DNA of 51,595 bases, from positions 72,051 through 123,645 of the forward strand of contig JAGXRQ010000017.1 of assembly GCA_018335675.1 (NCBI GenBank), written 5' to 3'. Each line of letters begins with the position of its first letter. Within the stretch, counting starts at the first letter, position 1. Of this stretch, positions 28,580-32,573 are shown piece by piece. A program made the translations under genes and the position numbers. The stretch is from Bacteroidota bacterium. Lineage in GTDB: Bacteria; Bacteroidota; Bacteroidia; Bacteroidales; UBA7960. The notes under the pieces are model-generated. The model did no database searches. It was given only the letters and a program-made list of their open reading frames with translations, and was not told the origin of the DNA.

Positions 28580-29119
28580 CTATTGCCTATCGAAAAATGG
28601 ATTTTTGCTTGATGCAGACAAAGGTATTCCGAACATAATATTATAATTACTATCTAGGAAATTCAACTCTCTAGCTGCCATTCCTATAGTATACATTATG
28701 CGATTATCTAATCTTAAATCAGCCGCCTTAGAAACAGCCGAGCCCAATGCTATTCCAAGATCAATAACATTAAAAACACAGGGAGTATTTGGGTGATTAT
28801 TTTTCTCATCACAATTTTCAAAACCACACAACCCACAATATTTTAAACCAACAGGATTTATCTGGCATCCAATTATTACAACAGCAAGAGCCCCATCAAT
28901 AAGGTTCTGAGCATCTCTGATAAAAAACCCAACATCTTTACTGTTGCCGATTTTTTTCATAACATCAGACAATGAAATTATTTCATTTTCGGTAATAACA
29001 ACAGCTGCAATATTGTCTAAGCCCCTGGCCTTGGGAGCAGTTCTAACTGCTACAACTATTTGCTGTGCTAAATTTTGAACAGAATTTTTAATAATTTCCT
29101 TTTCCTTTAAAACCGCCAT
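28580..29119 (-). CDS. DUF2148 ferredoxin-like domain protein
   Basis: The 179-residue protein carries the DUF2148 cysteine cluster YCGLCGFENCDEKNNHPNTP followed by CVFNVIDLGIALGSAVSK and AADLRLDNRIMYTIGMAAREL. The cysteines could bind an iron-sulfur cluster. The family is common in anaerobes and its biochemical role is unknown to me. It starts 3 bases after the stop of the DnaB-like ATPase gene on the minus strand, so the two are co-transcribed and probably co-translated. Its stop directly abuts that of the convergent UbiD gene. Confidence 0.8.
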   Translation of the reverse strand: MAVLKEKEIIKNSVQNLAQQIVVAVRTAPKARGLDNIAAVVITENEIISLSDVMKKIGNSKDVGFFIRDAQNLIDGALAVVIIGCQINPVGLKYCGLCGFENCDEKNNHPNTPCVFNVIDLGIALGSAVSKAADLRLDNRIMYTIGMAARELNFLDSNYNIMFGIPLSASSKNPFFDRQ

Positions 29120-29122
29120 TGC

Positions 29123-30019
29123 TTAATTATCAGTAAATTTTGCAATACTTTCAATATATCTTATTGTAATAGTTTTATTGGGAGACACATCCTTGTTTTT
29201 AGCAACAATAATTTCAACAGGCTTACCTTTTGAATTTCCCACAACCGGTTTATTGTAGATATCACATCTATGTAAGAATAAAACCACATCTGACAATTCG
29301 TTTAGATATTGAGGAATGTCATTAAATTCAGGTTTAACCTCAGATATAATCCCAGGATATAATTGTTGCTGAGAAAATAACAAAACAGGAATGTTTAAAT
29401 CCCTAGCCAATTCTTTGAGAGATTCTACAATTATGCGGAATTTTTCTTCGATTGGGATATCCTCATTACTTCCTGTTGATATTAACTCAAGATAATCAAC
29501 AATAATAAGATTAACATCATTGACTTGCTTCAGATTAATTGCCTTTTGACTTAATTCGAAGTGGGTCAATTCAGTTGAATCGTTGATGAAAATATTAGAT
29601 TTAGCAATTGTATTAATCAGAGTGTTTATATGCTCTTTATCTTCAGCTTTAAATTTGCCATTTTGGATATTATTCAATGACATGCCAGTTTCACTTTCAA
29701 TAATGCGCTTAGCGATTCTTTCTTTACTTCTTTCTGCCGAGAAAATTGCTATTGAGTGGTCTTTTTTAAGAGCTAGGTTGGTCGCTATTGAAAGGAGTAA
29801 AGCGGTTTTTCCCATTCCAGGCTTAACAATAATTGTGGTAAGATTTCCATTTTGTAAGCCACCTATTTCTTTATCCAAAATTTCAAATCCGGTAGATATT
29901 CCGTTTTCGATGGGTTTAACTTTGAAGTCTTGTCCCAGTGTCTGATTTACTACATCTTCCAAGGTAGAGAAATCAGCCACTGCAGATTGCTCTGTGACTT
30001 CCAGGGTGTTTTCAGCCAT
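29123..30019 (-). CDS. DnaB-C-like RecA-fold ATPase lacking the helicase N-terminal domain
   Basis: The 298-residue protein is the DnaB C-terminal ATPase module only. It has Walker A KPGMGKTALLL (66-76), the catalytic-Glu block FSAERSKERIAKRI (Glu96), Walker B LIIVDYLELI (171-180), a sensor Gln in LLFSQQQL, an arginine-finger-like HR in VVLFLHRCDIY and AKNKDVSPNKTITI. DnaB normally has a further 150-residue N-terminal domain; here residues 1-38 are only a short acidic extension. All ATPase residues look intact. It could be a ring-forming ATPase or a KaiC-like signalling ATPase, not the replicative helicase. The SiaC-like gene lies 87 bases upstream and DUF2148 3 bases downstream, suggesting one transcript. 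Confidence 0.82.
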   Translation of the reverse strand: MAENTLEVTEQSAVADFSTLEDVVNQTLGQDFKVKPIENGISTGFEILDKEIGGLQNGNLTTIIVKPGMGKTALLLSIATNLALKKDHSIAIFSAERSKERIAKRIIESETGMSLNNIQNGKFKAEDKEHINTLINTIAKSNIFINDSTELTHFELSQKAINLKQVNDVNLIIVDYLELISTGSNEDIPIEEKFRIIVESLKELARDLNIPVLLFSQQQLYPGIISEVKPEFNDIPQYLNELSDVVLFLHRCDIYNKPVVGNSKGKPVEIIVAKNKDVSPNKTITIRYIESIAKFTDN

Positions 30020-30106
30020 ACCAATATGATTTAATTAATTTTTTGTTAGATAATTTGTCCTATGTAATGCAGAATTAGGACTTATTAAACTGTGGAGATT
30101 TCAAGC

Positions 30107-30481
30107 CTAGCTCATTACAATTTCGTAATCTAGGTCGAGCTCATCAACAAGTTCTTTCCATGCATCAAGAAGATCTTCTTCACCTTCTATATAGTTCCAG
30201 TAAATTTCGACTTTCTTCCCGCCTTTCTTGTACTCGTCAATTATTTCAAGTATTTTAAAAAGATACTTAGAGGAGCTAGTATTGAAATAATTAACATTGA
30301 AATTCACGATAAGAGTCCTGTCTTGCGTTTGAGTGAATTCTTTTACCCAGTCGGTAAGAGGTTGAAAAAACTCAATTGCATTATCCGGATAGCTAGTACC
30401 TGAAAAAGACATAACTCCGTTGAGAAAATCGAAGTTGATTCCAAAAGTTGTTTTTGTGGGGGCTAATATCAATTCTTTCAT
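30107..30481 (-). CDS. SiaC-like regulatory phosphoprotein (DUF1987)
   Basis: The 124-residue protein opens MKELILAPTKTTFGINFDF and contains FNVNYFNTSSSKYLFKIL, the DUF1987 / SiaC signature, with Thr68 in NTSS at the position reported for phosphorylation of Pseudomonas SiaC. There SiaB phosphorylates SiaC, SiaA (a SpoIIE-type PP2C) dephosphorylates it, and unphosphorylated SiaC activates the cyclase SiaD. This window has two SpoIIE phosphatases (7574-10090, 47642-50005) but no SiaB-type kinase or diguanylate cyclase. The next gene on the strand is a DnaB-like ATPase, so its partner may be different here. Confidence 0.88.
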   Translation of the reverse strand: MKELILAPTKTTFGINFDFLNGVMSFSGTSYPDNAIEFFQPLTDWVKEFTQTQDRTLIVNFNVNYFNTSSSKYLFKILEIIDEYKKGGKKVEIYWNYIEGEEDLLDAWKELVDELDLDYEIVMS

Positions 30482-30839: not shown

Positions 30840-31715
30840 GTGAATAGGTATTCAATAAAGGATCTTGAGAAAATAACCGGCATTAAGGCGCATACAATTA
30901 GAATGTGGGAAAAGCGCTATAATATTATTGAGCCTAAAAGAACGGTTACCAACATTAGGTTTTATTCAGATGAGGATTTGAAAAAACTTATGAACATAAG
31001 TACATTAAACAAGAATGGGATAAAAATATCTGAGATTGTTGAGCTTTCGTCAAATCAGATTTGCGAGAAGATTATTGAATTAAATAGTTCTTACGGTGGA
31101 ACAGACACATATATAAATAGTTTGATTATTGCTACCGCAGAATTGAATGAATCACTATTTAACAAGATAATATCTGGAAGTATAGTAAAAAATGGGTTTG
31201 AAAAAACATATACTTCAATTCTGCAACCATTTCTTGAGAAGATAGGCATTATGTGGCAGTCGGGCTCTATAAATCCTGCTCAAGAGCACTTTATATCTGG
31301 CCTTATTAGACAAAAACTGATTGTATCTATAGATAATCTTGAAGAAAGCGAAACGGACTTTAAAAATAAAATTATACTGTTTTTACCTGAAAATGAACTG
31401 CATGAAATAGGATTGTTATATTATTATTATTTGCTTAAAAAATCAGGCTATAAGGTTATTTATCTTGGCCAATCGGTACCTTTAGATGATCTTAAAAAAG
31501 TTCAATTAATAAAGAATGTAGATTATTTCTTAACTATTATAACTACCGGGCAAACGAAAGAAAAGCTAAAATCATACATAAGCAGACTTTCTGATTTATT
31601 GCCAGATAAAACAATTTTTGCAACAGGTTTGCAAATAAAAGAGTACAACATCGATTTTCCTTCCAACATTTTACCTGTTTCAAACTTCAATGATATTAAA
31701 GAAAAAATTAAATAG
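30840..31715 (+). CDS. MerR-family regulator with cobalamin-binding domain (CarH/LitR-like)
   Basis: The 291-residue protein has an N-terminal MerR helix-turn-helix (1-70; YSIKDLEKITGIKAHTIRMW), then a four-helix cap and a B12-binding Rossmann domain. The CarH motif W-x9-EH is exact (Trp139, Glu149-His150) and ELHEIG (Glu186-x-His188-x-x-Gly191) matches ExHxxG, with His188 the likely lower cobalt ligand. CarH-type proteins bind adenosylcobalamin and release DNA in light, or respond to B12 level; that is family knowledge. The start is GTG at 30840, because an in-frame TAA sits just before it. A perfect palindrome lies upstream and an ECF sigma gene downstream, a pairing seen in Bacteroidota carotenoid clusters, though crt genes are absent here. 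Confidence 0.9.
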   Translation: MNRYSIKDLEKITGIKAHTIRMWEKRYNIIEPKRTVTNIRFYSDEDLKKLMNISTLNKNGIKISEIVELSSNQICEKIIELNSSYGGTDTYINSLIIATAELNESLFNKIISGSIVKNGFEKTYTSILQPFLEKIGIMWQSGSINPAQEHFISGLIRQKLIVSIDNLEESETDFKNKIILFLPENELHEIGLLYYYYLLKKSGYKVIYLGQSVPLDDLKKVQLIKNVDYFLTIITTGQTKEKLKSYISRLSDLLPDKTIFATGLQIKEYNIDFPSNILPVSNFNDIKEKIK

Positions 31716-31982
31716 TAATATTTAATTGAAGGTGGAAATTTTTTCGAAAACAATTTAGTTACCGTCATTTAAATTTCTCCAATCATCCAAAACTCTCTCA
31801 AAGCGCTTATTTATAATGGTTTTAAATAGAATTAATTTCATTTTTCATTTAACAAGGCTTAAACAAAACATTTTCAAATATTAATTATATCAAATCGAAT
31901 TATTTATATATTTGCAACATGAAATAGCTGTCAATTATACCTTTCAGTATTTATTACGCTTTTTTACATATGTTAAATATTG

Positions 31983-32039
31983 CAAATTTTGTTGAGGTAA
32001 TATATTTTCTGTTTAACTTTACCTCAAAATTTGTTAAAC
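31983..32039 (+). promoter_or_regulatory. Overlapping alternative hairpins before the ECF sigma gene
   Basis: TTGAGGTAA (31992-32000) pairs with TTACCTCAA (32019-32027), extended by CAAATT and AATTTG at the outer ends. GTTTAAC (32011-32017) pairs with GTTAAAC (32033-32039). The second hairpin encloses the 3' arm of the first, so they cannot both form; they could work as a leader switch or overlapping operators. Confidence 0.4.
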
Positions 32040-32049
32040 AACAAAAAAG

Positions 32050-32056
32050 AAAGGAG
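32050..32056 (+). promoter_or_regulatory. Shine-Dalgarno sequence AAAGGAG
   Basis: AAAGGAG lies 7 bases before the ATG at 32064 and decides this start over an in-frame TTG at 32031. Clear Shine-Dalgarno sites are rare elsewhere in the window. Confidence 0.75.
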
Positions 32057-32063
32057 TCAAAAA

Positions 32064-32573
32064 ATGACAGCAATTGAATTTAATTATAAGCTTCTTAGCT
32101 TACAGAAGAATCTAAAATACTTCGCATATACACTTACCTCAAATTACGAAGACGCTCAAGACCTGGTTCAGGAAACATATTTAAAAGCTCTTAGCAATAG
32201 AGATAAGTTTGCAGATGACACAAACTTGAAAGCATGGACTTTCACAATAATGAAAAACACCTTTATTAACAACTACCGTCAGAATGTAAGAAGTAATACT
32301 ATCGTTGACAAAACCGACGATTTGTATTATCTTAATCTGCCAAAATCTAGCAAGGTAGGTATTCCGGATGCAGACATTTCAGTAAAAGAAATTGAAAGGG
32401 AGATTCAAAGAATTGATGAAGAACAACGTACTCCTTTTGAAATGTACCATGCAGGATATAAATACAAGGAAATAGCAGATCATTTGAATCTAAACATAGG
32501 AACGGTAAAAAGTAGAATTTTCTTTACAAGAAAAAAATTAATGGAAACATTAAAGGATTTCAGAAATTCTTAA
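32064..32573 (+). CDS. ECF-type RNA polymerase sigma factor
   Basis: This 169-residue sigma-70 family protein contains region 2 (TLTSNYEDAQDLVQETYLKA, with the DAQDLVQET core-binding and -10 contact segment) and region 4 (EIADHLNLNIGTVKSRIFFT, a helix-turn-helix). It lacks regions 1 and 3, which defines the ECF class. No anti-sigma gene follows; downstream is aspartokinase. The upstream MerR/B12 regulator is on the same strand, so regulator and sigma probably act in one cascade, perhaps controlling carotenoid, photoprotection or DNA repair genes elsewhere. The chosen ATG has a Shine-Dalgarno match; the longer form from the TTG at 32031 is rejected. Confidence 0.92.
   Translation: MTAIEFNYKLLSLQKNLKYFAYTLTSNYEDAQDLVQETYLKALSNRDKFADDTNLKAWTFTIMKNTFINNYRQNVRSNTIVDKTDDLYYLNLPKSSKVGIPDADISVKEIEREIQRIDEEQRTPFEMYHAGYKYKEIADHLNLNIGTVKSRIFFTRKKLMETLKDFRNS

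Follow-up and report, generated by a model that had tools for sequence, protein, structure and literature searches.

A SiaC-family gene beside a DnaB-derived ATPase and a DUF2148 protein in Bacteroidota: a possible output operon of a SiaABC-type partner switch

Introduction

For Pseudomonas aeruginosa, two reports describe phosphorylation of SiaC at Thr68 by SiaB and removal of the phosphate by SiaA; the cyclase SiaD is bound and activated by SiaC in its unphosphorylated state, and phosphorylation of Thr68 blocks this (PMC8457831, PMC7647112). The SiaC target described in PMC8457831 is a diguanylate cyclase, and the same paper reports SiaC-domain proteins to be widespread and suggests for them a common role in modulating adjacent proteins. 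What might SiaC control, then, where the adjacent gene encodes something other than a cyclase? The question is raised by a locus in the draft genome of a Bacteroidota bacterium of the order Bacteroidales (150 contigs, 98% complete, 3.4 Mb), in which a SiaC-family gene lies next to genes for a short DnaB-type ATPase and a DUF2148 protein. An earlier reading made from the DNA letters only (here, the sequence-only reading) had proposed that a SiaC switch may act here on the ATPase and on a putative iron-sulfur protein. In a literature search whose coverage left out most subscription journals, SiaC and DnaB were not found together, DUF2148 was not mentioned, and COG4739 did not occur among the 10 papers listed.

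This work examines the locus within the window, that is, the whole stretch of 51,595 nucleotides that was analysed, and follows its genes into related genomes. The ATPase and the DUF2148 protein appear to form an old, widely kept pair to which SiaC was added later, and partner switching of the SiaABC type with a possible new output is considered as an account of the locus.

Results

Gene order and its conservation. The open reading frames bear out the layout given by the sequence-only reading: three minus-strand genes in the order SiaC, ATPase, and DUF2148, separated by gaps of 87 and 3 bases (Table 1). All three products score above their Pfam cut-offs, which are 24.5 bits for SiaC, 27 for DnaB_C, and 25 for DUF2148.

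Table 1. Features of the window discussed in the text
Feature	Position	Strand	Evidence
SiaC-family phosphoprotein, 124 aa	30107..30481	-	Pfam SiaC 107.5 bits
DnaB-derived RecA-fold ATPase, 298 aa	29123..30019	-	Pfam DnaB_C 181.6 bits
DUF2148 protein, 179 aa	28580..29119	-	Pfam DUF2148 104.8 bits
Divergent MerR regulator with B12-binding domain (CarH-like)	30840..31715	+	Pfam MerR_1 + B12-binding_2
CarH-like MerR-B12 regulator followed by sigma-70-family (ECF-like) sigma factor	30840..32573	+	
SpoIIE-domain protein, 838 aa	7574..10090	-	
SpoIIE-domain protein, 787 aa	47642..50005	+	

A survey of gene neighbourhoods, proposed in the sequence-only reading as a check, shows that the adjacency recurs in other genomes; its absence there would have spoken against that reading. 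The scan used one genome per species, an alignment of eight ATPase members, and one peptide pattern, members without the pattern being missed; it returned 54 ATPase loci, all in Bacteroidota MAGs. A DUF2148 gene lies downstream of the ATPase gene in 49 of these loci, at a gap of no more than 229 bases, and a SiaC gene lies upstream in 18, with a further partial SiaC at the contig end of L045. The five loci without DUF2148 are L071, L072, L074, L079, and L087, the last of which ends inside the ATPase gene; the other four hold a short ATPase gene with no adjoining DUF2148, in genomes that gave no SiaC or SiaB-family match.

The pair of ATPase and DUF2148 is also kept in nine outgroup loci with other neighbours. 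This persistence in altered surroundings is better evidence for a link between ATPase and DUF2148 than any we have for SiaC. Chance adjacency of the two was considered and rejected, given the 49 of 54 loci and the retention of the pair where surroundings differ.

Outside the locus scan, matches were sparse. Searching a phylum sample of 395 genomes with the ATPase (E 1e-75) gave a match only in the source genome, and an order sample (E 1e-45) gave matches in 9 of 198 genomes, source genome included, 8 of the 9 being the short form. DUF2148 occurs in 3 of 296 sampled genomes, again counting the source genome. The DUF2148 genes on G059:C15 (L137) and G427:C66 (L138), from the same phylum, have no short ATPase gene in the stretch, that of L138 ending 147 bases past the gene.

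The history of SiaC at the locus looks different. Mapped onto the ATPase tree, its presence requires two changes, which we interpret as a single gain and a single loss; L045 counted as having SiaC on its partial match, which was assigned to the L045 contig by length and strand, four loci whose upstream region is short or cut (L038, L052, L078, and L083) were left unscored, and the window's own ATPase sits on a long branch of unsure placement. The surroundings are shared as well: in the 54 stretches compared, window included, dnaK was found in 36, a MerR gene in 32, and aspartokinase in 27 (dnaK and aspartokinase being named from sequence likeness only). Since the block around the locus is itself syntenic, the 19 occurrences of SiaC do not count as independent. 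Against this, SiaC stays beside the ATPase gene in L065 and L085, where the neighbours differ and an upstream MerR gene was not found. A further 19 genomes of the clade lack SiaC and still have both ATPase and DUF2148. Judged from this tree, SiaC appears to have been gained once, inside a syntenic block, and the ATPase-DUF2148 pair appears to be older. The three-gene linkage seen at the outset thus recurs, with the qualification that the older and wider unit is the pair and that SiaC is a single later addition.

A family of short DnaB-type ATPases. The ATPase consists of a linker region and a C-terminal domain. Its match to TIGR00665 (DnaB) begins at profile position 138 of 435, and the helicase N-terminal domain is therefore absent, as had been noticed from the translation. 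Among proteins of known structure, it is closest in sequence to DnaB helicases (2r6a, E 6.7e-64). The sequence-only reading had also identified Walker A, Walker B, and catalytic Glu96, and these are confirmed: Gly70, Lys71, Thr72, Asp175, and Glu96 are invariant in all 52 full-length members, window included. An "arginine-finger-like" His-Arg was a misassignment, as His250-Arg251 aligns with a Tyr-Arg of the genome's true DnaB and not with the finger column.

In DnaB, the D-L-R-E-S-G stretch holds DNA-contacting residues (the RES loop), and the Arg of A-K-H-R-N-G (A-K-x-R-N-G) is the arginine finger. All 52 members of the short family have a deletion of the RES-loop Arg-Glu. The finger column holds Lys in the window and Arg in a single member; counting any Arg in the finger loop, where the alignment is loose, raises this to 7 of 52. 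Because the RES-loop Arg-Glu and the finger Arg are lost while the ATP site is kept, the ATPase is probably not a helicase, and it seems to be a DnaB paralogue that has left DNA.

Other residues mark the family. Arg97, directly after Glu96, and Glu178 are invariant, at positions where the genome's DnaB has Met and Gln, and M1, T9, F17, and L28 near the N terminus are kept in 50 to 52 of the 52 members. All members are 295 to 327 aa long, measured from the first possible start. The source genome encodes a separate full-length DnaB on contig C72, which is 30% identical to the short ATPase. In a tree of 51 loci, the window, and two DnaBs (L065 and L086 were excluded for interrupted frames and L087 for its contig end), the 52 full-length members without an N-domain form their own branch, apart from the two DnaBs. 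An N-domain only recently lost would, by the sequence-only reading, have counted against its proposal; a recently shortened DnaB is rejected on this tree, in which the ATPase appears as a family of its own.

A predicted model of the ATPase has a pLDDT of 83, with residues 1 to 16 unreliable. Ten alignment columns shift between SiaC-bearing and SiaC-less members, among them residues 12 (Ser to Pro) and 14 (Val to Gly) near the N terminus; being based on one evolutionary event, these shifts are only a hint of a SiaC-binding surface. Either decay or assembly error has interrupted the ATPase frame at L065:8001-8885 and L086:6552-7765, two loci with open SiaC and DUF2148 frames. A phage origin was also considered and set aside, a search of phages only having given 866 matches, all below 60% identity, of which the best 20 were 29 to 34% identical.

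A predicted nitroreductase fold for DUF2148. An AF2 model built from 25 sequences has a mean pLDDT of 91. In a Foldseek search of the PDB, the best matches of this model were iodotyrosine deiodinase (E 7.6e-7) and FMN nitroreductases; VIA-align gave Z scores of up to 14.1, with an rmsd of 4.9 over 147 residues. Sequence searches did not point the same way: a Pfam search of the protein gave no nitroreductase match, and a sequence search of the PDB gave no clear relative, the best hit being an LGR4 entry at E 0.048. From the model, DUF2148 is predicted to have the fold of the FMN nitroreductase superfamily.

Four cysteines (Cys95, Cys98, Cys103, and Cys114, spaced C-x2-C-x4-C-x10-C) are invariant in 49 of 49 aligned proteins, window included, as is A28-P29-K30; the alignment omits L058, which is cut at 133 aa. 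An iron-sulfur flavoprotein with putative cofactors is the natural reading of DUF2148. The earlier suggestion of a putative Fe-S protein is amended by the modelled nitroreductase fold, under which the protein is not just ferredoxin-like.

The SiaC protein of the locus. The locus SiaC matches P. aeruginosa SiaC at E 4.4e-17 (6kko_C), and its Thr68, in Asn67-Thr68-Ser69-Ser70, aligns with Thr68 of that protein in 6kko and 6k4f. All four residues are kept in 19 of 19 locus SiaCs, window included, in agreement with the first assignment of the gene as SiaC-like with Thr68 in an NTSS motif. Its score against the NCBIfam equivalog "biofilm regulation phosphoprotein SiaC" is 85.3 bits, below the cut-off of 150, which suggests a member of the family other than the Pseudomonas equivalog.

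The locus copy is one of seven SiaC genes in the source genome, three of which, on contigs C120, C95, and C69, adjoin a DUF6272 gene. A SiaC tree of 49 rows (19 locus SiaCs, 24 non-locus SiaCs, and 6 source-genome paralogues, which is not every paralogue of those genomes) places the 19 locus SiaCs on one side of a branch with an SH-aLRT support of 95. Next to them is a group of three, comprising the source genome's PCMT-linked SiaC and the rows from G208 and G198, all with SiaB next door. Both the SiaC and ATPase trees are quick ones, with SH-aLRT support only.

Switch components across genomes. SiaC, SiaB-family, and GGDEF surveys covered the genomes of 50 of the 54 loci (all except L052, L082, L083, and L087); the SiaB-family and GGDEF surveys also included the source genome, giving 51 genomes in the latter. 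A survey of TPR-linked SpoIIE proteins covered 40 genomes of the MerR-linked clade. As these are draft genomes, each single absence is of limited weight.

SiaC was found in 27 of the 50 ATPase-bearing genomes, 11 of which have exactly one copy, and in six (G205, G206, G210, G211, G212, and G247) that single copy is the one at the locus. A single SiaB-family gene is present in five of these six, always beside PCMT, as in the source genome; a Gfo/Idh gene follows PCMT in four of the five and in the source genome, the contig of G210 ending first (PCMT and Gfo/Idh are named from likeness outside G212 and the source genome). The sixth, G211, gave no SiaB-family match. More broadly, of the 21 clade genomes with SiaC, a total that includes G202 with its locus cut upstream, 20 encode SiaB-family kinases. 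DUF6272 proteins of three loci pass the cut-off of the NCBIfam SiaB family (NF038262, 85 bits), with scores of 140.8 bits in G212 and 154.0 for the source-genome protein on C120.

A TPR-SpoIIE protein is encoded in all six single-copy genomes, adjoining an ispG-like gene in G205, G206, G210, G211, and G247 (named from likeness outside G205); in G205, the phosphatase part matches SiaA best, at 149.3 bits and below the equivalog cut-off of 700. At E 1e-30, TPR-SpoIIE matches occur in 21 of 21 clade genomes with SiaC versus 0 of 19 without, some matches (e.g., that of G216) covering the SpoIIE part only. The 19 SiaC-less clade genomes likewise gave no SiaB-family match. SpoIIE proteins of some kind are present in all 51 genomes searched, these 19 included.

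GGDEF matches were found in 3 of 51 genomes, G216, G229, and G230; G216, which carries a locus SiaC, is the only one among the 21 SiaC-bearing genomes of the clade. The 51-genome search gave no GGDEF match in the source genome or in the six single-copy genomes. As a control, the same search gave matches in 8 of 14 control genomes.

The source genome has four DUF6272 (SiaB-family) matches and 22 SpoIIE matches. Together with its SiaC genes, these amount to a large partner-switch network in 3.4 Mb with no detected c-di-GMP cyclase. Two of its SpoIIE-domain proteins are encoded in the window (Table 1) and match the TPR-SpoIIE proteins of the single-copy genomes; both are candidate SiaA-like partners.

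In seven outgroup genomes, the ATPase-DUF2148 pair is present, SiaC genes lie elsewhere beside SiaB (one SiaC each in G236, G238, G239, G240, and G244; two in G241 and G243), and no GGDEF match was found. As SiaC-SiaB pairs occur there away from the ATPase and without GGDEF, SiaC has other targets in these bacteria, and the absence of a cyclase therefore does not single out the ATPase as the target.

A divergent CarH-like gene. The regulator gene divergent from the operon encodes a protein that matches the CarH structure 5c8d (E 4.1e-19) and scores 99.9 bits against NCBIfam CarH, under the cut-off of 400. It is followed by a gene for a sigma-70-family (ECF-like) sigma factor, an arrangement conserved in relatives. 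In the larger clade, 34 of 41 loci have the gene adjoining the unit; a contig end truncates 5 of the 7 that remain. It is a possible regulator of the operon.

Discussion

We tentatively read the three genes as the output operon of a SiaABC-type partner switch, with a confidence that stops somewhat short of an even chance. It is plausible for a switch of this kind to have an ATPase/redox output. The phosphorylation of SiaC at Thr68 would be set, in response to some signal, by a SiaB kinase and a TPR-linked SpoIIE phosphatase whose genes lie outside the operon. SiaC in its dephosphorylated form would then dock on the ATPase, possibly around the N-terminal segment and the linker helix of the latter, and alter the oligomeric state of the ATPase or its turnover of ATP. 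Having given up its action on DNA, the ATPase may activate or gate DUF2148 in an ATP-dependent manner. The pair of ATPase and DUF2148 would be the core machine and SiaC an add-on control, which one sublineage may have lost along with the rest of the switch. The kinase is named by elimination and phylogeny, and the binding of SiaC and the direction of its effect are inferred.

Several observations agree with the output-operon reading. The order SiaC-ATPase-DUF2148 is conserved on one strand, and the locus SiaCs group in their tree beside the source genome's PCMT-linked SiaC. Six genomes have only the locus SiaC, five of them with one PCMT-adjoining SiaB-family gene and none with a GGDEF match; TPR-SpoIIE proteins track SiaC throughout the clade (21 of 21 versus 0 of 19). 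The ATPase keeps its ATP site and has lost its DNA-loop residues, and its pairing with a protein of predicted nitroreductase fold survives in other surroundings. Some of the evidence pulls the other way. G216 combines a locus SiaC with GGDEF, G211 has a locus SiaC without a SiaB-family match, and the 7 SiaC, 4 SiaB-family, and 22 SpoIIE genes of the source genome leave the pairing ambiguous.

The remaining difficulties also support the main rival, under which the SiaC gene entered a stable chromosomal block a single time and its product acts on an unlinked target instead of regulating the neighbouring ATPase. One gain and one loss in a block that is syntenic throughout would produce the 19 linked cases, ATPase and DUF2148 occur with no SiaC in 19 clade genomes, and the seven outgroup genomes with unlinked SiaC-SiaB pairs and no GGDEF match point to other SiaC targets. 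This is a real possibility, although we lean against it: SiaC still adjoins the ATPase gene in L065 and L085, where the upstream MerR gene is missing, and six genomes without a GGDEF match retain the locus SiaC as their only copy.

Alternatively, ATPase and DUF2148 could be a self-contained, ATP-driven redox enzyme whose transcription answers to light or B12 through the divergent CarH-like regulator, SiaC being a minor or different part. The wider distribution of the pair than of SiaC is consistent with this, as is the position of the CarH-like gene beside nearly all uncut loci of the larger clade (34 of 41, with 5 of the other 7 cut). This regulator does not adjoin the pair in the outgroup loci, and we consider such an enzyme unlikely.

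We judge it rather improbable that the ATPase still acts on nucleic acid, as a loader or a recombination or primosome accessory, with DUF2148 as its redox sensor. DnaB helicases are its best matches of known structure, and the linker segment and ATP site are kept; against this stand the RES-loop deletion in every member, the near absence of Arg from the finger column, and an inspection by eye of the first residues of the most conserved neighbours, in which no replication or repair gene was seen. That the ATPase is a decaying phage or plasmid DnaB remnant with chance neighbours, to which the frames interrupted in 2 of 54 loci might speak, is barely credible given its distance from the phage matches, its conserved motifs, and its chromosomal synteny in dozens of genomes.

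A more specific version of the output-operon reading holds that a paralogue of the replicative helicase became a ring driven by ATP and independent of DNA, that this ring powers or gates an Fe-S flavoenzyme, and that a SiaABC switch acts on it through direct binding of SiaC, in bacteria most of which have no detected c-di-GMP cyclase. Taken whole, this is a somewhat unlikely chain. If true, the range of SiaC outputs would widen by a new kind, and the DnaB fold would have a role new to it. Where a genome keeps one SiaC beside one candidate target and no cyclase is detected, as in some of those studied, a SiaC role without c-di-GMP can be tested with few proteins, and DUF2148 gains a probable fold and an ATPase partner.

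Comparison with known systems

The proposed switch resembles SiaABCD of Pseudomonas aeruginosa in the Thr68 of SiaC within N-T-S, in the SiaB-family kinases, and in a SpoIIE phosphatase with a SiaA-like catalytic part. It differs in its linked candidate partner, an ATPase, and in the scarcity of GGDEF cyclases, detected in no more than 3 of 51 genomes; in addition, the five single-kinase genomes encode kinase and phosphatase away from the locus, and the sensor part of the phosphatase is of the TPR type. The ATPase shares with the DnaB replicative helicase (2r6a) a linker segment, a RecA-fold domain, Walker A and B motifs, and the catalytic Glu, whereas it lacks the N-domain, RES loop, and arginine finger, and has invariant E-R and L-E where the full-length DnaB retained by the genome has E-M and L-Q. 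DUF2148 is modelled with the fold of FMN nitroreductases and iodotyrosine deiodinase (5ko8, 3gfa, and 4ttb); unlike those nitroreductases, it has four invariant Cys and no Pfam nitroreductase match. Finally, the divergent gene encodes MerR and B12-binding domains like those of the light-dependent B12 regulators of the CarH type (5c8d), but its score falls below the NCBIfam CarH cut-off.
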